DNA of 64,000 nt, from positions 25,872,001 through 25,936,000 of the forward strand of contig OX467086.1 of NCBI GenBank assembly GCA_950106755.1, read 5' to 3'. Made by a program: the position numbers and the translations under genes. This document shows positions 32,495 to 59,714 of this stretch, in pieces; position 1 is the first letter of the stretch, and the number at the start of each line of letters is the position of its first letter. The stretch is from Climacium dendroides. Its lineage: Eukaryota > Streptophyta > Bryopsida > Hypnales > Climaciaceae. The notes beneath the pieces are model-generated. The model did no database searches, was not told the DNA's origin, and was given only the letters and a program-made list of their open reading frames with translations.

Positions 32495-32499
32495 CCCAC
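32495..32499. repeat. Target-site duplication CCCAC, left copy
   Basis: CCCAC precedes the 5' LTR; the same five bases follow the 3' LTR at 42,946-42,950. On the minus strand GTGGG is coding sequence of the interrupted exon. Confidence 0.95.
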
Positions 32500-33572
32500 T
32501 GTGGACTGAATTCCAATTTTTAGTTTGTCCGATTGGTAGTTTTTCATGTTATAATTGTAGTTTTACCAATCGGGAGGGTAGTTAGGAGGGGTATACTGGG
32601 TATGTACGCTGTATTTGCCGATAGAGCACGCTGAGGAGATTCGGGGAGGTGTTTCCCATTGGCGGTTTTGAACTGTGGCCGGCTGGCCGGTATGTATTGG
32701 GTTTTTCCCGATTGTTATTCTGAGTTGACTTCGAGAGAGAGAAGCGCTCCTTCCAGAGTTTGGAAGTAAAAACGATTGTGTGTTTGTGTTGTTTTGTTTG
32801 AGTAATATGAAGTTGTGTTTTGCCAATGGTGAGTGATTCTAGAGTCTGTGTTTGTCTTTGTGTGCGATTGTGTGTGACTGTGTATGTGTGAGTTTGAAAC
32901 CGATTGGAAATTGTGGGTTATGGATGCTGTGGAATGTTAATGGTCGATTGTAATTGTATTGAATATCTGTATGAGTTACATACCGATTGGGAGTTGTGCT
33001 GGTCGATCAAGAAATACCAATTGGGATTGTTTGAGTAACTGAGTGAAGAACCACCGATTGGGATTAAATGGTTTATTGATGAATAAAATACCGATTGGGA
33101 GAGGTATATGAATTAAATGTGTAAATCAAGAAATGAGAAAATTGATACGATTGGAGAAATTGGAGAGCTTAACCGATTGAGGGAGAATTAATAATATTAT
33201 TTACAATTGAGTTAATTTAGAGAATTCATTTTAAGAGAGAATACCGATTGGTGTTATGCGGGAGTCTGAATACTGATGGGAGATGTTGGAGTGTTGTGAA
33301 AGATAACCAATTGGGAGTGGACTGGGAGCGAGACAACAATTGGAGAAAAGACCATCGGCTAAAATAAAGATGCAAGCCCAATTGATATGATAAGTGGGAC
33401 TGACCAATTGGCTGTTGGGATAACGATAGGAAAATTTGTACAAACATAAACTTGCAATTGGTGATTTCTTTTGGGGAATAAATTTTACAATTCAATCGGG
33501 ATATTTTACCTCCTAGTGTTCGAATCCTACAATAGGGTTTATTTTTATAGAAGAAATAAAAATCCTTCTACA
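32500..33572 (+). repeat. 5' LTR (1,073 bp)
   Basis: Starts TGTGGACTGAATT, ends TCCTTCTACA. It holds ten exact CCRATYGG octamers (starts 32529, 32566, 32900, 32983, 33018, 33054, 33091, 33244, 33307, 33403) plus several one-mismatch forms. The run 32983-33091 is spaced 35, 36 and 37 bp. Confidence 0.97.
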
Positions 33573-33676
33573 TTTTGGCGACGGAGGTAATTTTCATATT
33601 TCAATTGGAAGAATAAAATTTATTCAACCTAAATTGTCAATTGGAATGGTTGTGTATGGGATAATGATGATAGCTC
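33573..33676 (+). promoter_or_regulatory. Primer-binding site and gag leader
   Basis: TGGCGACGGAGG at 33,576-33,587 lies three bases after the LTR, the place for a tRNA primer site. The first seven bases match the complement of an arginine tRNA 3' end; the rest does not clearly match, so the primer tRNA is unassigned. Confidence 0.6.
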
Positions 33677-36600
33677 ATGAGTTATAATGGGGAATCTGAG
33701 TCTAGTGTAAGTGCTCGAGAGACAAGGGCTCGTAGACGTTCACGTTCTCAATATCAATGGTATATCAATCAATTTGAACACAATCAGACTGTTTCATTAC
33801 CTAATAGTCCCAATTGGGAAAATTATAACGTAGAGTCTGACACCACCTCTGACGAGGAGCCAGATAATCATTGGTTTCCACCAATTGGTCCAGTGGATAT
33901 AACTGGATCGGCACATTCCAATAGTCCTGAGCGGGACAGTGAACCAATTGGAAGTGGGGATAATTTTGAAACTGAACATCACTTGAATAGTGATTTAAAT
34001 CCATTAGATCCTGAACCAGAAGTAGAAATCAATTGGTTTGAGAGTGATTGTTCAGATATGGAGGGTGAAGTAGAACCTAGACGACAAGTCTTACCTGTGG
34101 CCATGAGGGCTGGGGAAGAAGCCGATCGGCCATATTCCTTAGTGCAATTTCCAAATTTTTATGGACAAATTGGTAGTGATCCCGATAGGCATATTCATGA
34201 ATTTTTAATCGTATGTAATGCTAATAATGCTAGAACGGAAGCCCATTGGCTTAGTATTTTTCCGGTTACGTTGCAAGCCCATGCTAAACAATGGTTTCAA
34301 CGCCAAGCACCCGATCATTTTGCCAATTGGACTGCTTTAAAAGATGAGTTCTTAGCTCAATTTAGACCAATAGCTTATGAAGAAAGGTTGAGTGAACAAT
34401 TACAAGATATTACAATGTCTTTAGGGGAATCTATTGATTCTTACTATGGCCGATTGGAAGATTTGGTTTTAAGACTTCCAGCCGGTCATGGTTATAATGA
34501 TCAAATGCAAACGAGGTTTTTTATAAGGGGATTAGTTCCACATAGATTAAAAACGTATGTGAAAGAAATTGTTCCGGGAACCTTAAACGATGCATATAGA
34601 AGAGCAAAATTATGGGAGGAGGTGAATTTTGAGGATAACTATGGGATAGCTATACAATCTCAACCTCAATTGAGACCTAATATTAATGATAGGATGGTAC
34701 CGGTAGTTCCCTACCAAACTCCATATCCACCTACTACCTATGTTCCTCCAAATTCTACCGTACAAGTGTCAATACCACCAATAGTGCCAGTCAATGTGGG
34801 ACCAGTACAAACTTTGCCTATTGGTACAATGGTGGTTAAACCAATACCAATAGAGACCAATAAAATGGAATCCCAATTGTTAGACTTAACTCATAAATTT
34901 GAGGATTTGGCCGTTCATTTAAATAATGCAATAGAAAAGAAAGGTCAACCCCCAAATGATAGAGCCAATATTTGGTGTAACAATTGTAGAGGTCAGGGCC
35001 ATATGTTGAACGATTGTCCCTCGCCACCTAATTTATCTTCCAAGTGTAGATTTTGTAATGGGAAACATGAGACAGAATCTTGTCGCAACTTGCAAAAGAG
35101 TCTAATTAATGATGCAAATTTACGTGCCCAAATGGGTCAAGTATATGTAGTGGATAATAATAATAACAATTATGATAACAGTAATAATCCCAATAGGTTT
35201 ACTCGACAAATCAATTATAAAGGAAATAATTTTAATCCCAATTTTGTGCCCAAGAATAGGATTTTTAATTCTAACTTTAACCCAAATTTCAACCCAAAGA
35301 ATTTTAACAATGATGGGTTTAATGCAAATCCCAATAGGTATATTCCTCAAAATCCTACGAGTCAAAACCAAGGGTGGAATCAAATGCCTTATGGCAATCC
35401 TAGTCAAGAAAATCCTACCTATGGGGGAAATAATCCAAGTTGGCAAGAAAATCCTAATGTGCAATGTTATAATTGTAGAGAAATGGGACATTACGCTAGG
35501 AATTGCCCAAATCCTAAGGCTAGCATTCCATATGTTCCATTGTGTGGCAATTGCAACCAAGCAGGCCACACTGCAAAGGAATGTAATGGGCCCAAAAGGG
35601 AAAATCCACGTAATAATGATGGGATGGTGTGGGAAAATAATACCGGTTCAAAATTAGTAGTGCCCGCTGAAGATAGAGTAGTTCACCATGTTTCAATAAA
35701 TGAAGTGGGGTCATCGAGTGATTGTGATAATTCAGACTTAGAAGAACAATTGAAATCTAATGATAGTATGAAAAATGTCAAACAAGTTACTACTAGAGCA
35801 AGGGCTAATAAACAATTACCGATGGGGGGTCAGTCTATAATTAATGCAGATGTGAGCTTACCAATAGGGAATAAAAGTTCCAATGGGAATGTAGAAACTC
35901 AAATACAAGAGGTGGCACCACTGATTCAATCAGGGACCACTACCTTACCAATTGTTAATAATGAACATAAATTGTTAGGAAATCAAAACAATGGAGTTAT
36001 AGTGCAGAAAGAAACCCATTGGGTACCTCAAAATATTCCATTGAGTCAACCAGTCCCATTGGTAGACCCTGTGATGTCAAATTTGAGGACTTTAAATCCT
36101 GTGGCCAATGGAAAATTTCAAGAGTATCAACCAGCTCTTGAAATTTTTAAACATCCCATCAAAGAAAATCCATCTTTAGATCCGGGTTTAATAAATATGG
36201 CTAAACCAATTGGTGATGCATTGGATATAGCACCAGATCATCCCAATTGGAAAAAGCAAACAGTACCAATAGGTCAGCAATCAGTACCGATCGGAAGTCA
36301 AGTACTACCAAATAAGACCAATCGGTTTAGGCGGAATAGAAATGCAAAATCAATTGGTATTATGCATGGAACAATTGGTTATGACATTTTAGAAGATCTA
36401 GGGAATTTAAAAGCTGACATATCCATAAAACAATTGTTGGGAGTAGCACCTCAATGTAGGGCTACACTTCGGGAAAATTTAATTAGAAAAAGACCTAGAA
36501 AAATGGTAAATGAAGTTGCTATTAGTCCAGATCCTGGCGCTCCTATGATTGATGTAACAATTGATGGGGTTCTAATAAGTGGTGTACAAGTTGATGGAGG

Positions 36601-36946
36601 GTCGAGTGTAAATTTAATGAATTGGGATACTATGACTAGTTTACAATTAAATGGGTTACAAGAGACTAAATTAGTCCTACGTATGGTTGACCAGAGTAGG
36701 GTAATTCCAAAAGGTATTTTACCTAAATTAAAAACCATGATATCCGGTATCATTTATTATATAGATTATATTGTGTTCCAACAATTGTCTCTTAATACGT
36801 CATATCCTATATTACTGGGTCGGCCTTGGCTATATCAAGCCAAAGCTAAAGACAATTGGGGTAGGGGTTTATTGACAATTGGTTCTGGTTCATCTAAGGT
36901 TAAATTACAAATGTATTCAAAAAAATATCATGGGGAAACACAATAG
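33677..36946 (+). CDS. Gag-protease polyprotein of the Gypsy element
   Basis: 1,089 residues. The retrotransposon gag core is near residues 190-260 (around WFQRQAPDHFANW). It is followed by four zinc knuckles: CNNCRGQGHMLNDC (about 434), CRFCNGKHETESC (about 456), CYNCREMGHYARNC (about 596) and CGNCNQAGHTAKEC (about 622). An Asn-rich linker lies between knuckles two and three. Near residue 973, VDGGSSVNLM is a retropepsin active-site motif with DGG in place of DSG/DTG, as in some plant Gypsy lineages. The frame ends at a single TAG (36,944-36,946), after which the same frame stays open into pol. Roles by family: capsid formation, RNA packaging and polyprotein cleavage. Confidence 0.93.
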   Translation: MSYNGESESSVSARETRARRRSRSQYQWYINQFEHNQTVSLPNSPNWENYNVESDTTSDEEPDNHWFPPIGPVDITGSAHSNSPERDSEPIGSGDNFETEHHLNSDLNPLDPEPEVEINWFESDCSDMEGEVEPRRQVLPVAMRAGEEADRPYSLVQFPNFYGQIGSDPDRHIHEFLIVCNANNARTEAHWLSIFPVTLQAHAKQWFQRQAPDHFANWTALKDEFLAQFRPIAYEERLSEQLQDITMSLGESIDSYYGRLEDLVLRLPAGHGYNDQMQTRFFIRGLVPHRLKTYVKEIVPGTLNDAYRRAKLWEEVNFEDNYGIAIQSQPQLRPNINDRMVPVVPYQTPYPPTTYVPPNSTVQVSIPPIVPVNVGPVQTLPIGTMVVKPIPIETNKMESQLLDLTHKFEDLAVHLNNAIEKKGQPPNDRANIWCNNCRGQGHMLNDCPSPPNLSSKCRFCNGKHETESCRNLQKSLINDANLRAQMGQVYVVDNNNNNYDNSNNPNRFTRQINYKGNNFNPNFVPKNRIFNSNFNPNFNPKNFNNDGFNANPNRYIPQNPTSQNQGWNQMPYGNPSQENPTYGGNNPSWQENPNVQCYNCREMGHYARNCPNPKASIPYVPLCGNCNQAGHTAKECNGPKRENPRNNDGMVWENNTGSKLVVPAEDRVVHHVSINEVGSSSDCDNSDLEEQLKSNDSMKNVKQVTTRARANKQLPMGGQSIINADVSLPIGNKSSNGNVETQIQEVAPLIQSGTTTLPIVNNEHKLLGNQNNGVIVQKETHWVPQNIPLSQPVPLVDPVMSNLRTLNPVANGKFQEYQPALEIFKHPIKENPSLDPGLINMAKPIGDALDIAPDHPNWKKQTVPIGQQSVPIGSQVLPNKTNRFRRNRNAKSIGIMHGTIGYDILEDLGNLKADISIKQLLGVAPQCRATLRENLIRKRPRKMVNEVAISPDPGAPMIDVTIDGVLISGVQVDGGSSVNLMNWDTMTSLQLNGLQETKLVLRMVDQSRVIPKGILPKLKTMISGIIYYIDYIVFQQLSLNTSYPILLGRPWLYQAKAKDNWGRGLLTIGSGSSKVKLQMYSKKYHGETQ

Positions 36947-39900
36947 GAATCTTTTGAACATACTAGTGATTTTGATTATAGTTCAGGAGATGAGGAAAAT
37001 ATAGATGCCAATCGGGTACAATTTCATAGGGTAATAAAACCAACCAAATCACCAATTGGTAGAACCTTTAAAGAAATTGGGCTTGGGGAATACTTACTGC
37101 CTTGTAAAGACAGTGAGGATTCCGATCGGGCCATTGCCTATTGGTTAATGGATAAGGCTGTCTATGGGATATTTGATAACCAATCGGAGTTAGAACCTAC
37201 TTGGGAAACAGAAGATCAATGGGATTATTCTTCTGAGTCTATCCCAATTGAAAAACATGTTCCTAAAGATTTATGTATGGATTTAAATATTGGTACCGAA
37301 GATGATCCAAAAATAATACAAATAAGTCGGGAATTAAAAGTAGAGGAATTAAATCAATGGTTAAATTTCTTTAAGGCTTATTTAGGGACTTTTGCTTTTT
37401 CCTATAAGGATTTAAAGGGTGTACCCCCCGAGGTGTGTGAACACCACATAACCTTAGAGGAAAACGCTAAGCCGGTTCGCCAAAGGCAACATCGATTAAA
37501 TCCTAAGTATTCACTATTGGTGAAGGAAGAGATAGATAAACTTCTGGAAATAGGATTTATCTATCCCGTTCCATTTAGCGAATGGGTGAGTCCAATTGTT
37601 GTGGTTCCTAAGAAAAATGGGAAAATTCGTATATGTCAGGATTATCGGAAATTAAACGCAGCCACTAAAAAAGATTATTTTCCATTGCCATTTACCGATA
37701 GTGTTTTGGATTCGGTAGCAGGTCATGAAATGTATTCATTTTTAGAAGGTTTCTCCAGATACAATCAAATTAGTATAGCATTAAAAGACCAATTGTTGAC
37801 TACTTTTACTACCGATTGGGGTACGTATGCTCATAGAAGAATGCCATTTGGGGTTTGTAATGGACCGGCCACTTTTCAAAGAATAGTCACGGTAGCCTTC
37901 CAAGAATTTCTCCGCAAATTCATGGAGATTTTCTTGGATGACTTCTGTGTTTTTGGTTCTAAAGAGGACCATTCGGCCCAATTAGCTCTTTGTTTTAGTC
38001 AATGTAATAAATATGGCATTTCTCTTAATGCGGCCAAATGTCAATTTGCGGTGCCATATGGTAAACTATTGGGACATATTGTGAGTAAAGAGGGAATAAG
38101 TACTGACCCTGATAAAATTGATTTAATTGTAAATACTCCACAACCTAAAACTATAACGGATGTTAGAAGTTTTGTTAGTCTTGGGAGTTATTATAGGAGA
38201 GCGGTTAAGGATTTTGCTACCCATGCAGCTCCTTTAACAAATTTATTAAAAAAATTAGAAAAAGGTGCTAGTCCTATATGGACACCAGAGTGTACCAAAG
38301 CATTTATTACTCTAAAAGAACGTTTAAGTACTGCTCCGGTATTAATTCCTCCCAATTGGGATGAACCATTCCATGTTTATGTGGATGCTTCCAACATAGC
38401 ATTGGGTTGTGTCCTAAGTCAAAAGGATAAAAAGAATATGGACCACCCAATTTATTTTGCAAGTAGACAATTGATAGCGGCAGAGAAAAATTATACTACT
38501 ACCGAACGTGAGGCACTAGGAATGATTTTCGCTGTTAAAAAGTTTCGTCATTACCTATTGGGATATCCATTTACATTTTATGTTGATCACGATACATTAA
38601 AATATTTAATTAATAAGCCAGATTTAAGTGGCCGATTGGCTCATTGGGTATTACTCTTACAAGAGTTTAAATTTTCAATTGTGGTTAGGCCTGGCAAAAC
38701 ACATGCCAATGCCGATCATTTATCCCGATTGGAACCAACACCTCACTCTAACATTGTACCAATTGATGATGAATTACCTGATGGTCAATTGTTTGTGGTT
38801 GAGGTAGTCCAATCGGAATATAAAAATATATTAGAATATTTAAAAACAAACCAAATTCCAAGTCAATTAAGTGATAAACAAATTAAACATCTTTTACATC
38901 AATGTGCTCCTTATACTTTAATTGATGATGTTTTATATAAAAAAGGCACCGATGGGATATTAAGACGTTGTATATTTTCTAATGAAATACCTTTAATTTT
39001 AGAGGGATGTCATACCGATGGGTGTGGGGGACATTTTGCGGGAGAACTTACCGCCCGTAAAGTTTTAATGGCTGGCTATTGGTGGCCAACACTTTTTAAA
39101 GACGCACACCGTTTTGCCCGGACTTGTGATCCGTGCCAACGTGTGGGCCGTTCTACACCCACTAAAGCCATGCCATTACATCCCCTATTGGCTTTAGCAC
39201 CATTTGAGAAGTGGAGGATCGACTTTGTTGGTCCAATAGCTCCACCTAGTAAACGTGGTAGAAAGCGTTATATTTTAGTTGCAACGGACTACGCCACTAA
39301 ATGGGCAGAGGCCATGGCCACTAAAAATAATGATGCTCAATCGGTAGCTAGGTTTTTATACGAAAATATAATTTCAAGATTTGGTTGTCCAATTGAGTTA
39401 ATAAGTGATAGGGGTACTCACTTTTTGAATGAAACAATTGAAACATTAACCAATAAATTCATGATTAAACATCGTAAAACTAGCCCTTACCATCCTCGAG
39501 CCAATGGGCAGACAGAAAAAACAAATGGTTTATTATGTAATATTTTAACTAAAACAATTTCGGGATCTGGAACCGATTGGGATGAAAAATTATGGGGAGC
39601 TCTTTGGGCTTATCGTACTGCCTATAAAGTCACTACTAAGTTTACACCATTCCAATTGGTATATGGGCAAGAAGCTATTCTTCCAATTAAATTTGAGATA
39701 CCTTCCTTGAGAATAGCAATTGCCAATAGGTTAGGAGAAGTTCCTAGTTTAGAAGCTAGGCTTAGCCAATTGGAACATTTGGATGAGGAGAGACGAGAGG
39801 CTGTGTATAATACTTTTGTGGCTCAACAAAAACGTAAATCATTTTATGATAGTAAGCTCCATCCTAAGCAATTTAAAGAGGGCGATTTAGTATTATTATA

Positions 39901-40105
39901 TGATAGTAGATTTCTTAAATTCCCTGGGAAATTTCAAATCCATTGGTTGGGGCCCTATGTTATTGTAAATATGAATCCCAATGGATCTGCCCAATTGTAA
40001 GATTTTGAAGGTAAACTTCTTCCTACTCGTATCAATGGCTATCGGTTGCGCCTATATCATAGTTCAGCCGGGGCCGGCTTCAATGATGGCGTGGAGGAGG
40101 TGTAA
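36947..40105 (+). CDS. Pol polyprotein: reverse transcriptase, RNase H, integrase
   Basis: The frame is continuous with gag after the TAG; the first Met is at 37,148. From that Met, RT carries the FLDD active site near residue 259, and RNase H begins around YVDASN (about 412). The integrase HHCC zinc finger (about 621-666) has CDPC as its second half. The integrase core has Asp in RIDFVGP (about 692), Asp in SDRGTHF (about 754) and Glu in QTEKTN (about 790), the DD35E layout. A TAA at 39,998-40,000 stops the frame; 34 more sense codons follow to a TAA at 40,103-40,105 and read like the usual integrase tail. The product would copy the RNA into DNA and insert it. Confidence 0.93.
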
Positions 40106-40269
40106 ATTCAATCGGTGGTTGGGGGGGGAGAATGATATTAATCTATGGCATTAATAATAGTATAGGTGAAACTAAAAAAATAAATAAAAATAAAAATAAA
40201 AAATAAAAAAAGATAAAAGATAAAATAATAATAATAATGTTTCATACAAAAGAAAAAGAAAGAGAAAAA

Positions 40270-40302
<33 letters not shown>

Positions 40303-40823
40303 TAAAAATAAAATTAGATATCTAAAATAATTATAATTGTCAGGAGAGTGAATTTAACATAATAGGCATAAATAGATTTTCATTTTGTAGTATTAATTAG
40401 AAAATTTTGGTAATTCTCGGAGTAATTAAGAGGGTTAAACTAATGAGTGAGAAAATATATATTAAAAATAAATAAATAAATAAATAAAACATGATAATAA
40501 TTAGTATAAAGAGTGATAAAGACTTGTAGCCAATAGGATAAAATGAAACAACATGATAACAATTGGCAATAAGGATAAGAATAATTGGGAGTGTTTTAAG
40601 AGAGTATCTACGTAGTATTTATGATAGATATAATAATAAGTAAGGAACCGATGGGACGAAGAGAATAGGGAGTGAGAATCAGTATTTAAAAATAATAATA
40701 ATAATAATATTTTTTTTTTAAAAATGATTGAAATTAAAATTAAATAACAATAAATGTGTCTTTTAAACAAAATTAAAATCTTAGTGTTAAAAATAAAAAC
40801 AAAAACATGATAAAATACTTTAA
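40106..40823 (+). other. Non-coding spacer between pol and the third ORF
   Basis: Very A/T-rich, with AAATAAA-type runs, a (TA)n run near 40,279-40,300 and (TAA)n near 40,690. No coding frame is seen. It may hold an intron or leader for the downstream ORF. Confidence 0.6.
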
Positions 40824-41834
40824 TTGAAAAATAATATTAAAAATAAGATAAAATTATATAAAACAAAAAAAACAAAAAACAAAAAACAAAATTATATAAA
40901 TAAATTTGGCGAATACTTTTCCAATACAAACACAAAATTATGCCAATTGGGTAATGATGTGGAAGTGGGATTGAGGGGGAGTTATGAGCCCGATTGGTAC
41001 GCGCGCCGTCAGGGTATCTGTCAACCGATTGGGAAGGACTATAACCATGAGCAGCCGCCGTTGAGTAAGCCGATTGAGGCTCTAATTGCAAACGAGGCAA
41101 ATTTCCGATTGGATATTGGTGAGGTGCTGGAGAATGTGAAGGAGAATCCCAATTGGTGTCCAGTCGATCGCCGCTACAAATGGCGTATGGATGCCCAATT
41201 GGATACTGTTTGGTACAATTGGCCAATTGTGGCAGGATCGTGGGGAAGCTGGCAGGATTGTGTTACCTCCTATCTTCGGTTTTGGCAGGAACACAAGACC
41301 CATCGGGATCCAGTATGTTTTTGGGCGGCCATCTTTTGCAAGGCATTGGCGGAGTGGTGCCAATTTTTTCAGATCATCATTGATCCCCGATTGGGAGGTC
41401 GTATGTTGCAGGATGGGGAGTTGTATGCGCGACTGAATTATAATTGTAGCAGGAAGATGCGCCTATTGGAGTTAATGTTTATGATGCAGTTCTTGCAGGG
41501 GGCGCACCACAACCTTATTGGCGATAAAAATTCCAATAGGAAGGGGCCAATGGAGGTTTTCTTGAACAGGGATCGGGATGGTTCATTGAAGCAAGAGCGA
41601 GCCAATTGGAGAGCTTTATCGGTGGATTGTGACAGGGCCAATCAAGCAGAACGGCGAAAGGGAGCAGGGAGGCCAATTTACCAGATGCCGTTGCAGTGGG
41701 TGCCGGGGGTTTCTTTCCAATTGATTCCTTACGGTGTCTCGGCGAAGAGCGCAAGACCAGAGAAGCAGGAGGTGGCTACTTCTACCAAGCCCAAGCCCAA
41801 GGAGAAGACCAAGACAATTGTTAAGAAGAAATGA
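40824..41834 (+). CDS. Third ORF of the Gypsy element, unknown function (up to 336 aa)
   Basis: It lies in sense orientation between pol and the polypurine tract, where Athila-type elements carry an envelope-like frame. The first 30 or so residues are Lys/Asn-rich and probably read from A-rich spacer; the real start is unclear and could be spliced. The body is rich in Trp, Arg and short PIG, NW and DW words. It ends in a Lys-rich tail (KPKPKEKTKTIVKKK). I see no convincing signal peptide or membrane helix, so calling it an envelope protein is not justified. It resembles no family I recognise. Many CCRATYGG octamers lie within it. Confidence 0.6.
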   Translation: MKNNIKNKIKLYKTKKTKNKKQNYINKFGEYFSNTNTKLCQLGNDVEVGLRGSYEPDWYARRQGICQPIGKDYNHEQPPLSKPIEALIANEANFRLDIGEVLENVKENPNWCPVDRRYKWRMDAQLDTVWYNWPIVAGSWGSWQDCVTSYLRFWQEHKTHRDPVCFWAAIFCKALAEWCQFFQIIIDPRLGGRMLQDGELYARLNYNCSRKMRLLELMFMMQFLQGAHHNLIGDKNSNRKGPMEVFLNRDRDGSLKQERANWRALSVDCDRANQAERRKGAGRPIYQMPLQWVPGVSFQLIPYGVSAKSARPEKQEVATSTKPKPKEKTKTIVKKK

Positions 41835-41854
41835 TGTTTGTGGGGACACAAACA

Positions 41855-41870
41855 GATGAGGTGGGGGCCA
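41855..41870 (+). promoter_or_regulatory. Polypurine tract
   Basis: GATGAGGTGGGGG, then CCA, directly before the 3' LTR. Position and purine content fit the plus-strand priming site. Confidence 0.7.
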
Positions 41871-42945
41871 TGTGGACTGAATTCCAATTTTTAGTTTGTC
41901 CGATTGGTAGTTTTTCATGTTATAATTGTAGTTTTACCAATCGGGAGGGTAGTTAGGAGGGATATACTAGGTATGTACGCTGTATTTGCCGATAGAGCAC
42001 GCTGAGGAGATTCGGGGAGGTGTTTCCCATTGGCGGTTTTGAACTGTGGCCGGCTGGCCGGTATGTATTGGGTTTTTCCCGATTGTTATTCTGAGTTGAC
42101 TTCGAGAGAGAGAGAAGCGCTCCTTCCAGAGTTTGGAAGTAAAAACGATTGTGTGTTTGTGTTGTTTTGTTTGAGTAATATGAAGTTGTGTTTTGCCAAT
42201 GGTGAGTGATTCTAGAGTCTGTGTTTGTCTTTGTGTGCGATTGTGTGTGACTGTGTATGTGTGAGTTTGAAACCGATTGGAAATTGTGGGTTATGGATGC
42301 TGTGGAATGTTAATGGTCGATTGTAATTGTATTGAATATCTGTATGAGTTACATACCGATTGGGAGTTGTGCTGGTCGATCAAGAAATACCAATTGGGAT
42401 TGTTTGAGTAACTGAGTGAAGAACCACCGATTGGGATTAAATGGTTTATTGATGAATAAAATACCGATTGGGAGAGGTATATGAATTAAATGTGTAAATC
42501 AAGAAATGAGAAAATTGATACGATTGGAGAAATTGGAGAGCTTAACCGATTGAGGGAGAATTAATAATATTATTTACAATTGAGTTAATTTAGAGAATTC
42601 ATTTTAAGAGAGAATACCGATTGGTGTTATGCGGGAGTCTGAATACTGATGGGAGATGTTGGAGTGTTGTGAAAGATAACCAATTGGGAGTGGACTGGGA
42701 GCGAGACAACAATTGGAGAAAAGACCATCGGCTAAAATAAAGATGCAAGCCCAATTGATATGATAAGTGGGACTGACCGATTGGCTGTTGGGATAACGAT
42801 AGGAAAATTTGTATAAACATAAACTTGCAATTGGTGATTTCTTTTGGGGAATAAATTTTACAATTCAATCGGGATATTTTACCTCCTAGTGTTCAAATCC
42901 TACAATAGGGTTTATTTTTATAGAAAAAATAAAAATCCTTCTACA
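41871..42945 (+). repeat. 3' LTR (1,075 bp)
   Basis: Matches the 5' LTR except about six single-base changes, mostly transitions, and one extra GA in a GA run. It ends TCCTTCTACA and is followed by CCCAC. Confidence 0.97.
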
Positions 42946-44279
42946 CCCACTCAGAAACTGCACTTGAAGTCCAATCCACTGGATTGGGATACTTCTCATA
43001 GAATTTTTTTTGAGCAGCAGCAGCAGCAGCATCCCCCAATTCTTGCTACAAAAAGTGAAGAATATGTAAGAATAAACATAAATGCAAATGATAACAAATG
43101 TTTTGAATAGTGGAGGAAGAGATATGAAATGCAATTGAAAAAAAGAGCTAATATCAAGAAACCTAAACATTCAAAGAAATTTGAAAACTAGAAAAGAAAA
43201 TGAAGAAATGAACCTGGTATAAGACTCCATTTAGAGCCTCAAGAGTTAAAGTGAACCAAGTTCTCTGTTTCGATTTTTACTTGGCTTCAGCTACAACAAG
43301 ATCCTCCTTAGAAACAAGTTTTTCAAAATACGAGAGTGGTTGTCCGGCAATATTTTGAATGCGATAGAGCTTGTGAACAAGATTTATGGAGACATGGGAC
43401 TTCTGATTTCGCCTGCCAAAATAAAATTTATTATATTAGAACATATAAAAAAAACTTTGAAATAAAAGAATGCAGAATAGCAGTATAGATAATGATTCAA
43501 GTGAAAGAAACTTGGAAAACAAAAGAAATGAATAAAATAAAAAGGGATCAAGAAATATAATGGTTTACCAATTGACTTCATGTAATGCTGTCAGCATAGT
43601 TGCAACATCCCCTTTGACCTCCAAAATGATACTTTCAACAGCACAATGCCATTGAAAGTCGTCCGCATGATCTCGGTTGATAAGAGGCATCCATGCTTGC
43701 AAACGATGGTTGCCATCCCATCCCATAAACATCTTGCCAGAAAAAACTTTGAGATCCTCATCATTTTACAATTCTCTCTCAAATGCAGCATTTGCTCTCA
43801 CCCAGTTTTGATTCCATGTTTTGATGATTTCATCCGTAACATCTATTGTCTTCCCTTCATTGTTCTCCAAGGCAACATAGAAAACTCCATTTCCTTCCAT
43901 GTAACCACAAGTAACAAAGTGTGCAGCTAAATTCATGACATCATTCTTTAAGAAAGGCCTCACCACCGGTAGAGATATCATACGACATAAAGGAATATTT
44001 ATTTTCGATTTAGCTCGTGGTTGATACCTCAACTGCTCAAGACGAGAAGAAGTATTCACAGTCTTCTTCTTCAAGAATCCATGCAATTGTAACTCAAGTT
44101 CATCTTGAGAAAGAGGTTGAAGTGCGGCATCAGCTTCTTATGCTTGTGGATCTCCTTCTGTCAACATCTCAAGAAAAATGTGCACATGAAGATTAGAACA
44201 AGTTTTAGTCTACATGTATGTACAATAATATATATCATTTCGTATAGAAATCATTAATGAATATGGTCTAAGGAGGCCT

Positions 44280-45420
44280 AAAAATTTCAGCATAAAATAA
44301 GCAATGTAGCATACATTGGGAAGAAAATCGAAGTCTCGAAAAGCATGGCCATCAACGGCTAGGGTCTATCAAGCCTTGAAAAATTTCAGAAATTGGCTAC
44401 TGTTGAGCAATGTAGCATACATTGGGGAAAAAAATAGAAGTCTCTAAAAGCATGGCCGTCAACGGCTAAGGTCTATCAAGTCTTGAAAAATTTCAACATT
44501 TGGCAAATGTTGAGTAATGTAGCATACATTGGGAAAAAAATAAAAGTCTCTAAAAGCATGGCCGTCAATAGTTGGGGTCTATGAAGTCCTGAAAAATTTC
44601 AGCATTTGGCAATTGTTGAAATAAATAGCATACATTGGGAAAAAAATTGAAGTCTCTAAAAGCATGGCCGTCAATGGCTGGGGTCTATGAAGTCCTGAAA
44701 ATTTTCAGAATTTGCCAATTGTTGAAATAGATAGCATACATTGGGAAAAAAATTGAAGTCTCTAAAAGCATGGCCGTCAATGGCTGGAATCTATGAAGTC
44801 CTGAAAATTTTCAGAATTTGCCAATTCGGCAAGTATTGAGCAATGTAGCATATATAGACATGAAATTCATGTCTCTGGAAGCATGGCCGTTAACGGCTGG
44901 GGTCTAAAGTCACAAAGATTTCAGCATCTGATGAGATCCTTAATGTTCTATAGAAGCCAAAAATTTCAACATTTGCCTAAATTCCTAATGTTTCCTAGAA
45001 GCAAATGTGTATCTCAAAACTATAGCCGTCAACGGCTAGGGTGTAGGAAGGCTCAAGAAATTGTAGTGCTCTACAAAATTGTAACACCCTAATTCTTAAA
45101 TTTGAGTTTAGAAAAGCGTAGCCGTTAACGGCTGGGGTTTAAGAAGGCTCAAAAAATTATAATACTCTACAAAATTGTAGCATCCTAATTCCTAAATTAC
45201 AGTTCAGAAAAGCGGAGCCGTTAACGGCAGGGATTTAAGAAGGCTCAAAAAATTGTAGGGCTCTACGAAATTGTAGCACCCTAAACCCTAAATTGGAATT
45301 CAGAAAAGCGTGACCATCAACGGCTGTCCATTGGAGAGACAAACATGAAGGCAATTCCAAGCAATTTTGAAAACAAAATAGAATTGGAAAAAGCGTAGCC
45401 GTCAACGGCTGGGGTCTAGA
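44280..45420. repeat. Intronic array of about eleven palindrome-cored units
   Basis: The core is GCCGTTAACGGC or a near form, at 44348, 44455, 44561, 44667, 44773, 44886, 45025, 45121, 45217, 45313 and 45398. Spacings are 107, 106, 106, 106, 113, 139, 96, 96, 96 and 85. Units share AGCATGGCCGTCAA...GGGGTCTA and GTAGCATACATTGGGAAAA in the first half, and AAGGCTCAAAAAATT...CTCTACAAAATTGTAG in the second half. The array lies in the intron between exons 2 and 3 of the methyltransferase-like gene. Confidence 0.9.
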
Positions 45421-47185: not shown

Positions 47186-50100
47186 ATGGCTAGTATTGTT
47201 GCTAAAGGTCATGATGTTCCATTTCTTTTACCACTAGATAATCAAGGTTTCGTTCGTGTACTTGCCCATCTCCTTCATGTCCAGTTTGGATTCACCCCTT
47301 CTTCTATTATTGTGGAAGAAGAAGTCCAAGGAGATCACGACGTTGTTAAGGAGTCTATCTTGCAGTCAAGATGTAGTGATCATAAAGGATTCTACTGGCT
47401 TCTTCCTGTAGAGCGCTATAGAGTTTATGGTCTCTTGTCAGAGCTCTTGCCACCTTCAATTGAAATATTGAAACTTACTTTTGATAAGTCCAAGGATGAA
47501 CACCCATTACCATGTCCTGTAAAAGTGGAGTCCTTAAGTAGTGGATGCTTTGAGAATACAATTGTGTTCAATATCAAACGCGAGTCTCTAGAACCTGTAA
47601 TTGAGTTGTTTAGCGATTCTGAAGGCGAAGTGCCACTGAAAGTCTGCCAACCTTCTTCTTCGAATGTTGTTTTTTCATGTATGGTAGATTCATCCATTCC
47701 TACTATCTTCCGTAGTACACTTAGTAGTCCAACATCATCCGTGTTTTCTCGCCTCCCTCTCCCTCCCAATCAAGGCGATTCCTTAACTATGTTAGAATGC
47801 CTTCGCAAATTGTCTTTAGTGCTTGGATCACGAAATGAACTTGCCCAAATTGATTTTGATGCCATTGACTATCAGAAGGTTTAGTTCCTCCCATCTAGAT
47901 TTGATGGGGATGTTCTTTTCGAGCTGCCACCTTGTCGTGGATCTACATGTGGAGCTAGAGGCATAGAAGGTATGGACAAGTGATACAATGGTCATGCATG
48001 GTGTCGCACTATGACATCAAACATCCATAATGACTTAGGTTTGAAGTTCAGAAAATCGCATTGTATTGGACACTTGATTTGTGAAAATACGAAATGTGAC
48101 TATTGCACACGAGCTTTGAAAAGCAATAAAACTAAGTGGATTGGAACCACCAAACATCCTTTTAGTGTAGGTCAGATTCCTCCTCCTAACTCTACTCTGC
48201 TCTGTAAAGTCTACAAACAACCTCCTACTTGTCTTAGTCTATGTAACTCGCGAATTTATTATGTACTCAGAAGTGGAGATTTGTCACATGCATGCATCCA
48301 TTTGGGTGTCCATTCACATCCAGTTACTGATGGTTAATGTAGAAAGTCTCTTGAAGCAATTACTGGCTAATTGCTAACGAAGTAGCTAAGACTCTAACAG
48401 CCAAAACTTCTGCCATCACCTTGGCGGCAAGTAAGGAATTCCTTGACACGTTTCTTATTCACGATGGGCTTGGAGCAAAGGAGATGCTTCACGGTGATGC
48501 ATTAGAAAATGTCATGGATAAATTCAAGCTCCTTAGCTTGCCCAATGTGCGCAACATCATTTCCTCTTTTCGGAGCAACAACAAAGGAGGAGGCGAGATT
48601 GATCGAATTCTAGACATGAAGGAACGTACCAAAATGGAGTATATCCACGATAGTATATTTCCAGGACAAGGGTAAGACAAGGTCTATTTATTCAAGATGC
48701 TCGTGGATGGACCTGGAAGTGGAGTGGATCTTATACGACAGATGCAACTAGGCGGCAACCTTGGAAATTGTTTTATCATGTTCGATCATGTCAAGAGAGT
48801 GAAATTATGAACGACTATTGCTTGCCACGTCTATGATTCTTCTTATTGCAAAGTCATGACCATTGCTATATGTGATATGCAGACTAAAGGGCACTGAAGG
48901 CCAGATCATTTTTTGGCGTTGTTTGAATAAGGTCATGATAAAAAATGGAGTGTCAAATCCTAACTTCAAGGGATTTATGTGCGATAGTGCTCAAGCCAAC
49001 TTTAATGCAGTTCGCACTATGTATGGGTCGGGGGACCCATCTATTCCAATGGTGGACCGTGAAAGGACTTATTTGTTCCATTGGGCGACAAGCATGCACA
49101 AGCACACGGAGAAACTAATCAACAAAGAGTTTCAGAAACAACATATCCGACTTTGCAGGTAGTATAAGGATGCAATATCAATATTTGAGGCAGATAAGAT
49201 GTATCTAGAAATCAAAGCTTGGTGGTATTCTTCTGGAGCTGCATCAGAACCAGCTATTCGCGAACTCGAGGATTGGTTGGCATTTTGGCACTTTTGCTAT
49301 CGTCAATGGGGTGCAATCATGGATACGGCATGATCTCTACTTTCATTGTTTTTTTTTCTATTTTTTATCCTATATCCTCAATGTTTCAAAGACTGACTTC
49401 ATTTAATATATTTGCAGAATTTGACAGTAGAAGAATTAGCAAATATTCCAACATGCAATTTGTCTGAAACAATGTACAACAAATAGATGCAAGCTTCAAG
49501 AAAGCATAGATCTGATTTGTTCGTTGTCACGTGTGATCACTGGGTTCAAGCCTTCATGCAAATGACCAATTATAGGATTTATCTTTGTGGGGGCCCTTCT
49601 GGAAAAGGCCCCTCTAAAGAAGATTTGAAATTGAAGAGGGCTATGGCATCTGGAGATGGAAAAAAAATTGCAGATGCACTTAGTGAGATGCCTGGAGCGG
49701 AAGACATCTACACTTGAATTTCGCATTTGAAGGGGGAAGAAATATTTGGATCCAGCAAAAGGAAATTAGATCTTCCAATTGGTTCTGAAGGTGATTCTCA
49801 TCGCCCTGACAAAGTAAACTTCTCTCATCCTCGGGTTCAAATCAGATCAGCTGTTGGTAGAGTGCAACTTGGGGCTGTAGTTGTCGAAACTAATACAGTT
49901 TTACCCCATATCCAATCTATTATAGAAACCGATTGTGATACATCAAAATGGCATATAGCGAGAATTTTACATAAGTCAAGGAAACAATGTCATGCCATTC
50001 AGAAGTACACACAAGCCAAATGCAAGCTATTGATTGTCAAGCATGGAATATCCATTGTTGCCCCTACTTATAGAGGGCAAAAGCGTGAGTATAAGGGGAC

Positions 50101-50800
50101 AATAGTTCAAACTGAGGATTTTTTATTTTGTGCTGACCAAATTGCACGATGTGTCATGGGACCTAAGCGTTCCCATGTTCTTACTCGACCTGAGATCTCT
50201 GAGATTTGACCTGTTCTTATTGGTACCAATCTTACTCGTACCGAAATTATAGAGTTTGAAGAAGCTGAATTTCGCTTGCAATCTAGCATTCCAATGTCAC
50301 CTCGACGGCTATTCACCTCATCAAGGATATTTGAGCCTATGTTGTGGACTCATCCTCGACCGGCACATGCTGAAAGAATTCCTTCTATTCGGAATGGTAA
50401 GCAAGTTCAACGGAGTAGTAAAGCCCCCACCGAAAATCACCGCAATCAATGGGAGAGTGCAAGGAATGTTACATCAAGTATCACTGGAGTGAACTTCCTT
50501 CCTTACCCTGGACTTGGTGCTATTATTACACTTTTGTTTGGTACTGAACCTAACCAAAAGGTTTATAATATCACGCTTTCTAATTTTTCATCTTGTACTT
50601 GTCCCCATTATGGAGGTATGAATGGAACTTCAATTAGAAAGCGTGGTATGTACATAAACTGCAAACATCTTTATTACATCTTCCGTTACTTCTGCAAATT
50701 GGATTACAAGATAGACACATTCATCCACGCCCCTACCCTCAATTTGGATGAAGTTAAGCAAGTGCTTGTTGCTGCCGGAATCATCAAGACGTGCAATTGA
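47186..50800 (+). pseudogene. DDE transposase-like gene with SWIM zinc finger (Mutator-like), decayed
   Basis: It starts MASIVAKGHDVPF in a good context (ACTATGGCT). In order it shows an acidic N-terminal region; a Cys/His module (CENTKCDYC ... HLGVHSHPV, around 48,060-48,330); a catalytic core with IMFDHVKR (near 48,780), MCDSAQANFNAVR (near 48,985) and WWYSSGAASEPAIRELEDW (near 49,225); and a C-terminal SWIM-like finger CTCPHYGG...CKHLYYIF (near 50,600-50,670). Such layouts occur in Mutator-type transposases. A probable intron ends in TTTGCAG at 49,417. In-frame stops include 47882, 47981, 48335, 48673, about 48810, 49160, 49484, 49715 and 50207; frameshifts occur near 48,365 and 48,890. 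The product would cut and join the element's ends. Confidence 0.75.
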
Positions 50801-57051: not shown

Positions 57052-59714
57052 TTAGAAGGCAGTGGATACAACAGCATCTATATTCACGTCTATTAGCCCT
57101 CCTGATTTTCTTCTATCTTGACGAGGAATCTTGATTTCCAGAGGCCGTGGACCTACTAATTCATGGTTAACAGGTGCATAACAAGCTTTACATACTCTTA
57201 AAACTTCATCGTAGACAGAGCATGGTATTTGTAATCCTAAGTCCCGCATTTTGATGTAATATGAAGTGGCAAGTTGCCATTGACCACTATTTGCCAGCGC
57301 TCTAATTACCTACAAAAATAAAACAGCATAAAAATGGTCAATAGCCAATGGTCGTACAGAATGCACGAATTGTTAGAACTGAGCGCAGGATGAGTTGCTT
57401 TCTGTTCCAAATTACTTCAACGCGAAAGATGATAACATTTCTGATTTGCGTCTCTTCCATTTCCAGCACGCATGCTTAGATAGTCCGAAGCTTAACTCGG
57501 CTTTAATTAACCTCACCATCCTGAATCCAGTGAAGCACATGAACAGAACCGGATGTCAACACTCAAAATGCCAGATGACGAGGTTAAGTATATATATGTT
57601 ACATACCTGGGAATAAGTGATAATATCTGGTTCGACGCAAGAAGCCTCCATCTGCTGCAACCACTTTACGGCACTTTGTCCATCACTAACCCGTGCACAA
57701 GCTGTAATCATGGCGTTGTAGGTCACAACAGTAGGCCCCATACCGTTGCGTTGCATCTCCTCGAACAAGTCTACTGCCTCGCTGTAATTTCCTGCTTTCC
57801 CCCGCACCGTAATCATGGTCGTGTAAGCATATTCATTTGGTTTCATACCTACCTTGAGCATGTGTTCCCAAACCTGGCAAAAATGTAAGAGAACGGCCAT
57901 CAGATAGCTGTCAAACTGGCTTGCTTTCATACTCCTTATTAAAATTTTAAGCATTCTGCTATGTAGGATGCAGACATGCAGATATGCACTGACAGGAATG
58001 AGTCGACTTCACAGGTGAACCAGGCAATGCTCACTAGTGCTAATACCAAGTCAACATACATTGACTTGTTCTTAGCACTAGAGAGCACTGATACATTGTG
58101 CGTTCTCATGTCACTCATGCACAATTCACAATTGATAATGCCCTCTAAGACATAGTGGCGAAGATAACATACCTGCTCCGCTTTGTCCGTCAAGTCCCCT
58201 TTCTCAAGAGCGCTTAGCAAGGCGCCATATGACAGTACTCCTGGTTTCTGTCCATGGGCTGTCATCTTCTGGAAGACTTCAATAGCAGAAGCAGGTTCAT
58301 GCGCTCTCCCGCATGCGATCAGAGCTGCATTCCACGCGAATGAATCCGGTTCAATCCCCTTTTCTTGCATCTTGTTCAGCAGCTGCAACGCCCACTTCCA
58401 TATCCCGCGCTTGCTAGCCGAATTTAGCAAAATCTGGAAATGCGATAGAAGCAATCGATGCGTAGTCTCGTCTGGAGGCGGTCCCACACTCATCATGTTT
58501 TCATAAACCTCAAGAGCAGCCCACCATCTCTTCCCTTTTCCTAAAACCCTAATGATATGATTACAAAGCGAAGCATTCAAGTAAAACCCTTGCGTCCGCA
58601 TGCTGAAGTAGAGCCACTTCACAGGGTAGTAATCCATCTCCCGCTGCCCGCACGCACGAATCAAGTCTTTACACATCTTCTCGGGCAAGTGGATTTCTGC
58701 CGCTTGCATTCTAGCGAACAGAGGCCCTAACTCTTTAATAGAGCTTGCATCACTACCCAGCCAACCCCATATCCGACGATAACACAACTGCACTACAAAG
58801 ACAGCAAGCTCCTGTCGCTGCTTCTTCTCTCGTTTCAGCTCCGGACGCTCACGCGCGATGCCACTTCGTTCCTGTTGCAATAAATCTCTATACAAATCCA
58901 GCACACGCTCGTACTTCCCACTCCGGGCTAGAGCCTGGATCGTCGTCCTATACGTAAACAGGTCAGGAACCATCCCTGACGCTTTTATATTCTCGTAAAC
59001 TTCCAGAGCTTCGTCGTACCGCCCTTGCAGATCGTACATACTAATCACCGTGTTGCAAGTCACGATATCGCAGGAAACGCCATTCTCTCGCATTTCTTCT
59101 AATATGGTGACCGCCAGGTCGTAGCACCGATTCGCTTTCAACACTCCTAACAATGAATTATAGGTGTACACATTTGGCCGCTCATCTCGTCGCTGCAGCC
59201 AGCGAAGCAGGGCCACCGCAGCTTGCGGTTTCTTTTCCATACCTAATTTTTGCATGACAGTAGTGAAAATCGAGCTTGGAAATTCTAAATCCCCTAGAAT
59301 AATCCCCACAGCTTCAGGACTCCGCACGCGGCGAAGGGCCCAAGTGAGAGCCCTCACAACTGGCGTGAATTCCCTGTCTGTCTCTATCCGACTCTGCGTT
59401 TCCTGCTGTATACGCCGCAACAAGGCCTCTTTGCTCTTCGTACTCATCTGATGACCAAATTTCTTCTCAGGCACCTCACTCTCGTCAGATACGATGCTCC
59501 CGAGCACTTCAGGAGCGTCCACTGGCTGTGAACGCAACGATTTGATTACGAAGCTTGTGGAATGCAATCCGCAGCTGTAAAAACACTTCGACTGGAGCAA
59601 CTTCGGTCCAAATTGGCAATCAAACATGGAATTTTTCAATGAAGAGGAGGCAGGGGCACAGAAATGCACGCTGTGGTAGACCGATGAAGTCATAATTCCT
59701 CGTCGTTTCAGCAA
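57052..59714 (-). CDS. P-class pentatricopeptide repeat protein (three exons), probably organellar
   Basis: Exons 58173-59714, 57607-57873 and 57052-57309 join in phase 0 (GTATGT donors, CAG or TAG acceptors) to 688 residues. The N-terminus is rich in Ser, Arg and Lys with few acids, consistent with an organelle transit peptide. PPR motifs begin near residue 178 (NVYTYNSLLGVLKANRCYDL), then IVTCNTVISMYDLQGRYDEA and LFTYRTTIQALARSGKYERV. After a basic helical stretch (near 285-305) more follow, including SFAWNAALIACGRAHEPASA, VLSYGALLSALEKGDLTDKA, EYAYTTMITVRGKAGNYSEA and VVTYNAMITACARVSDGQSA. The short 35-residue repeats with no E/DYW tail make it P-class, a sequence-specific RNA binder acting in plastid or mitochondrial RNA processing, stability or translation. 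The first Met is used; Met8 at 59,693 is an alternative. The frame is intact. Confidence 0.92.

Follow-up and report, generated by a model that had tools for sequence, protein, structure and literature searches.

VANDAL transposons of Arabidopsis encode VANC proteins that bind short DNA words, and methylation is lost across the whole element (PMC5735166, PMC10398659). VANC21 and VANC6 each bind short motifs in their own transposons, with methylation loss as the result (PMC5735166); the word is YAGTATTAY for VANC21 and AGTTGTCC/AGTTGTAC for VANC6 (PMC5735166, PMC10398659). Here we describe a Ty3/Gypsy long terminal repeat (LTR) retrotransposon of Climacium dendroides that is saturated with the palindromic octamer CCRATYGG. 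It lies in a 64-kb stretch of DNA (the window), positions 25,872,001 to 25,936,000 of contig OX467086.1 in assembly GCA_950106755.1; coordinates below are window positions. The sample throughout is one copy of one element in this one window.

Like the VANC/VANDAL system, this locus combines a short word that clusters in a single transposon lineage with an extra gene of unclear fold, here the third open reading frame (ORF3). Loss of the word in distant relatives belongs to the VANDAL picture and is hinted at here. VANDALs are, however, Mutator-like DNA transposons, whereas our element is an LTR retrotransposon and its word a palindrome. Judged by anatomy, it resembles VANC/VANDAL and is not a member, in view of its element class, its lack of tandem repeats and its coding sites. 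Among the titles and abstract beginnings of the matches listed from the open-access literature, none presents such a self-tagging system in LTR retrotransposons.

Two other described systems share single traits with the locus. Retand plant Gypsy elements carry an antisense TRP28 ORF between pol and the 3′ LTR (PMC11963269; extra ORFs are reviewed in PMC7264820). ORF3 occupies the same space, and a DNA-binding, regulatory role has been suggested for the Retand gene. Yet the TRP28 ORF is antisense and encodes Transposase_28, whereas ORF3 runs in sense, and a Pfam scan of it at E <= 0.1 gave no match; the available part of PMC11963269 describes no short-word saturation, and tandem arrays are present instead in half of those elements. 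Papers on BEN domains stood out among the listed literature matches to the octamer words. Insensitive, a dimeric BEN-domain chromatin-boundary factor of Drosophila, reads the same palindrome CCAATTGG (PMC6317261). The full-length protein has a coiled coil, and one ORF3 relative (P0008, below) has a coiled-coil-like stretch, an ATG16 match below the cut-off. Unlike ORF3, Insensitive is an animal protein, and the available part of PMC6317261 does not name CCGATTGG as its site.

Copy number and consensus of the octamer

By machine count the window holds 53 copies of CCRATYGG, 50 of them between 32529 and 42784, inside the retrotransposon (32500-42945): 10 in each LTR and 30 internal. A preliminary description, counted by hand, had given about 50 copies, ten per LTR and about thirty inside, and these figures hold. 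It had also noticed about two copies elsewhere; the word is indeed scarce there, but the exact number is three (13550, 49775 and 55524). Counted with one LTR, the element (9371 bp) has 40 copies, where dinucleotide shuffles average 0.67 (maximum 4, 300 shuffles), matching the earlier estimate that well under one would be expected. Outside the element (53,544 bp) the 3 copies compare with a shuffle mean of 2.0 (50 shuffles). The core hexamer CRATYG occurs 88 times in the one-LTR element, with 8.1 expected.

In a set of 384 palindromic octamers, each half of which has one two-fold position, CC[AG]A..T[CT]GG is the most frequent (40 copies); once its own overlapping versions are set aside, the next reaches 15 and is built of A and T alone. 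The element contains between 0 and 6 copies of each of nine control palindromes, and the one with 6, ACRATYGT, has the same core as the octamer. The CC, AT and GG positions are almost invariant, while positions 3 and 6 favour R and Y but admit other bases; the variants CCAATAGG/CCTATTGG at these positions account for 12 occurrences. Density is highest in the stretch between ORF1 and ORF2 (14.9 per kb, from 3 sites), followed by the LTR (9.3 per kb) and ORF3 (7.9 per kb). ORF1 and ORF2 each have about 3 per kb, and the 823-bp A+T-rich stretch preceding ORF3 has none.

The CCAAT boxes within the octamers had earlier suggested NF-Y. We reject this candidate: CCAAT/ATTGG outside motif words occurs 41 times with 36.2 expected (standard deviation 5.8, maximum 52), that is, at expectation, and CRATYG lacking both the flanking C and the flanking G, which contains no CCAAT, occurs 19 times with 4.2 expected.

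Selection on the word and spacing of sites

Of the 40 octamers, 27 lie within ORFs, where they use all three frames as had been claimed (5, 11 and 11 in frames 0, 1 and 2). Synonymous-codon shuffles (2000 for each ORF) give means of 2.97 (maximum 8) for ORF1, 0.67 (maximum 4) for ORF2 and 1.46 (maximum 5) for ORF3, against 10, 9 and 8 octamers observed. Shuffling codon order gives means of 0.30 for ORF1, 0.17 for ORF2 and 0.14 for the stretch of ORF3 that has homologues (from 41028), a stretch that holds 5 octamers against a synonymous-shuffle mean of 0.46. Synonymous shuffles made alongside these average 2.92 for ORF1, with 10 observed. That each of the three ORFs exceeds its synonymous shuffles, with all frames in use, supports selection of the octamer at the DNA level. 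Because observed counts exceed those after synonymous shuffling, which in turn exceed those after codon-order shuffling, the octamer is favoured by the choice among synonymous codons as well as by the order of amino acids. The earlier phrase ‘selection on DNA, not protein’ is thus supported, and the effect reaches beyond what that phrase supposed, since the order of amino acids is itself involved. Selection strong enough to bend gag and pol amino acids for the sake of a DNA word would be a striking case of overlapping codes.

Copying (decayed tandem duplication, gene conversion or targeted insertion) could in principle have spread octamers with no selection for the word. Some LTR octamers lie 34-37 bp apart (32983, 33017, 33054, 33091), a spacing that might be a trace of old, decayed repeats. 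But the sequences on either side of the 40 sites have nothing in common (no column above 0.17 bits), no tandem array overlaps the octamers, and the coding sites fall in three frames of intact ORFs, so that we regard copying as very improbable.

The sites keep a minimum distance. None of the 39 octamer spacings is below 31 bp (uniform placement expects 4.6, p = 0.006), and the range of 31-47 bp contains 12 of them, where 2.4 are expected and none of 5000 draws gave as many; the p-values are optimistic because both limits were picked after viewing the spacings. A local-jitter null gives p < 0.001 for both the lack of short spacings and the excess at 31-47 bp. Spacings of the CRATYG core agree, with 25 at 31-47 bp (9.8 expected) and 13 below 31 bp (21.5 expected). 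The simplest reading is the steric minimum of a sizeable bound protein; decayed tandem duplication is the alternative, against which stands the absence of any array over the octamers. Helical phasing was tried and rejected (vector lengths 0.08-0.27 at five periods for spacings below 150 bp, descriptive values only).

The word could instead work in RNA, where complementary copies would pair within genomic RNA and serve dimerisation, packaging or compaction. Octamer words are self-complementary, and CCGATTGG, which tolerates G.U pairing, outnumbers CCAATCGG, with its A.C mismatch, by 15 to 5, although only at p = 0.077 against a composition-based expectation. Other variants speak against pairing: CCRGTYGG and CCRACYGG are still pairable in RNA and both have 0 copies, the 12 occurrences of the position 3/6 variants are not fully self-pairing, and position 1 has T (wobble) and A (mismatch) equally often, 7 times each. 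Short hairpin distances are avoided, and predicted accessibility is below that of controls (median 0.0016 versus 0.0117), contrary to display in loops, though mutual complementarity would produce the same. We consider an RNA role improbable. A binding site in double-stranded DNA, kept by selection, is very probably what the word represents, as judged from these sequence patterns.

The ORF3 family and candidate readers

ORF3 matches seven database proteins at E <= 0.001 (650 candidates), and a family profile added one more (P0001 to P0008 in what follows). Homology to P0001-P0006 starts at 41028 and to P0007 at 41136; the alignment with P0001 (580 aa), which begins there, shows 77% identity. 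As no counterpart of the N-terminal half of P0001 was found in the window, this copy has a shortened ORF3 whose start is non-homologous. P0008 stops just short of the 41028 homology start, which could mark an exon boundary. At 41025-41032, the octamer starting at 41025 encodes PIG where the aligned P0001, P0002, P0003, P0005 and P0006 read WIG. The BEN profile, scanned against ORF3 (E <= 0.1), P0001, P0002, P0004, P0006 and P0007 (E <= 1) and P0008 (E <= 10), with P0003 and P0005 outside the scan, found no match. To our knowledge BEN proteins are animal and viral, and no plant case turned up.

Using the protein sequences of the relatives, not their DNA, we asked where amino-acid words could encode an octamer, and ranked the 64 R/Y palindromic octamers by this fit. 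CCRATYGG ranks first of 64 in ORF1 (17 places versus 6.8) and ORF2 (14 versus 4.3) of the window and second in the homologous part of its ORF3 (6 versus 1.6). It is also first in five of six closer relatives: P0001 (13 versus 4.6), P0002 (11 versus 2.2), P0005 (8 versus 1.8), P0006 (7 versus 2.6) and P0008 (16 versus 6.2). In the most distant relatives, P0004 and P0007 (46% and 38% identity to ORF3), it ranks 36 and 34, and in a host PPR protein taken as control 34. The fit extends to residues 1-320 of P0001, which have no counterpart in this element (rank 1), and to residues 470-762 of P0008 (rank 2). In an alignment of seven close rows, 34 distinct places are compatible with the octamer, while shuffling of columns yields 17.9 (maximum 31, 200 shuffles). 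QL and RL words are common in coiled coils. Since this is so and the aligned rows share descent, the footprint is a strong hint, short of proof, that the relatives carry CCRATYGG in their DNA. For P0004 the best-fitting palindrome is CGRGCYCG (9 places, z 4.0, top of 64, uncorrected for the 64 tests), possibly a switched word.

The palindromic site, a CRATYG core with flanking C and G preferred, makes a homodimeric reader probable. We infer that selection may have written the octamers across this Gypsy-type element, coding sequence included, as a self-recognition tag, and that the most likely reader would be a protein encoded by the element. The ORF3 family is the prime candidate, given its conservation and the octamer-rich stretch that encodes it. 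A protein bound along the LTRs and body would mark the element's own copies and could preserve their capacity for expression, perhaps by clearing silent chromatin or stopping it from forming, in the way that VANC acts on VANDAL transposons. We give about an even chance to this statement as a whole, a tag for an element-encoded reader together with anti-silencing.

Several observations weigh against it. VANC words lie in non-coding tandem repeats, whereas the octamers are scattered inside gag and pol and form no tandem arrays. ORF3 lacks here the N-terminal half present in P0001, profile scans recognised no DNA-binding domain in it, and its structure models are weak, none being usable. In the homologous part of ORF3 the CRATYG core occurs 11 times against a mean of 4.2, yet the largest of 1000 synonymous shuffles also has 11. 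The footprint is uneven, with CCRATYGG ranking ninth in P0003 (3 versus 1.5), seventh in residues 1-330 of P0006 and ninth in residues 1-320 of P0008, and compatible places that occur in a single close row only rank third of 64. Binding and an effect on methylation are proposed by analogy and from the sequence of a single element copy.

The reader might alternatively be a host transcription factor, insulator or architectural factor, recruited throughout the element for transcription, boundary formation or chromatin opening, with ORF3 otherwise employed. Insensitive demonstrates that such readers of CCAATTGG exist (PMC6317261), and the octamers of the LTR fit promoter use. However, a promoter site would not usually recur within ORFs, where 27 of the sites lie, the window outside the element has no more than about the expected number, and the footprint tracks relatedness to ORF3. 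Among plant factors, LEAFY has altered sites in its moss and hornwort forms. A host reader seems to us rather unlikely.

Should the element itself encode the reader, LTR retrotransposons would join DNA transposons in sequence-specific self-recognition, and the ORF3 proteins would form a new family of sequence-specific DNA-binding proteins. More tentatively, word and ORF3 protein may co-evolve, closer relatives sharing CCRATYGG and distant ones having moved to other words; this would be self-tagging of the VANC type, with an independent origin in LTR retrotransposons and with its action spread over the body of the element instead of being confined to non-coding repeats.

Element anatomy and neighbouring features

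The element is a Ty3/Gypsy LTR retrotransposon by its LTR ends, target-site duplication, gag zinc knuckle and reverse transcriptase-RNase H-integrase order (Table 1). The LTRs (1073 and 1075 bp) have TG...CA ends and are flanked on both sides by the 5-bp duplication CCCAC. The insertion looks young, since the LTR pair differs by only 6 substitutions and a 2-bp indel. One of the substitutions sits in the octamer at 33404/42777, which reads CCAATTGG in the 5′ LTR and CCGATTGG in the 3′ LTR, the change expected from CpG deamination. Pfam matches are Retrotrans_gag and zf-CCHC in ORF1, and RVT_1 (153-311), RT_RNaseH (405-507), Integrase_H2C2 (613-666) and rve (684-783) in ORF2. The pol frame of ORF2 is open from 36947 and is the same as that of the gag-protease ORF1; a single in-frame TAG (36944-36946) lies between them, where stop read-through is possible.

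Table 1. Features of the retrotransposon, in window coordinates
Feature	Position	Strand	Octamer starts
Target-site duplication CCCAC, left	32495..32499		–
5′ LTR	32500..33572	+	32529, 32566, 32900, 32983, 33017, 33054, 33091, 33244, 33307, 33404
ORF1, gag with CCHC zinc knuckles	33677..36946	+	33810, 33881, 33944, 34122, 34323, 34450, 36206, 36243, 36287, 36318
Open stretch, ORF1 TAG to first ORF2 ATG, same frame	36947..37147	+	37008, 37052, 37122
ORF2, reverse transcriptase/RNase H/integrase	37148..40000	+	37180, 37812, 38352, 38632, 38725, 38809, 39573, 39652, 39766
A+T-rich stretch, ORF2 to ORF3	40001..40823	+	0 (CRATYG cores, 2)
ORF3, no Pfam family	40824..41834	+	40943, 40990, 41025, 41105, 41149, 41195, 41387, 41602
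3′ LTR	41871..42945	+	41900, 41937, 42273, 42356, 42390, 42427, 42464, 42617, 42680, 42777
Target-site duplication CCCAC, right	42946..42950		–

To the right of the element, at 44318-44826, a unit of 106-107 bp is repeated in tandem about four times. Two ORFs at 49727-50800 have no Pfam match; the second contains a C.C...C.H pattern that presumably resembles the SWIM fingers of Mutator-like transposases. The PPR-repeat protein gene that provided the host control for amino-acid fit lies on the minus strand at 57939-59714. Its product best matches designed PPR proteins; of the natural proteins with names, the best matches are chloroplast PPR10 and PAP2/pTAC2, which by itself makes a land-plant host very probable.

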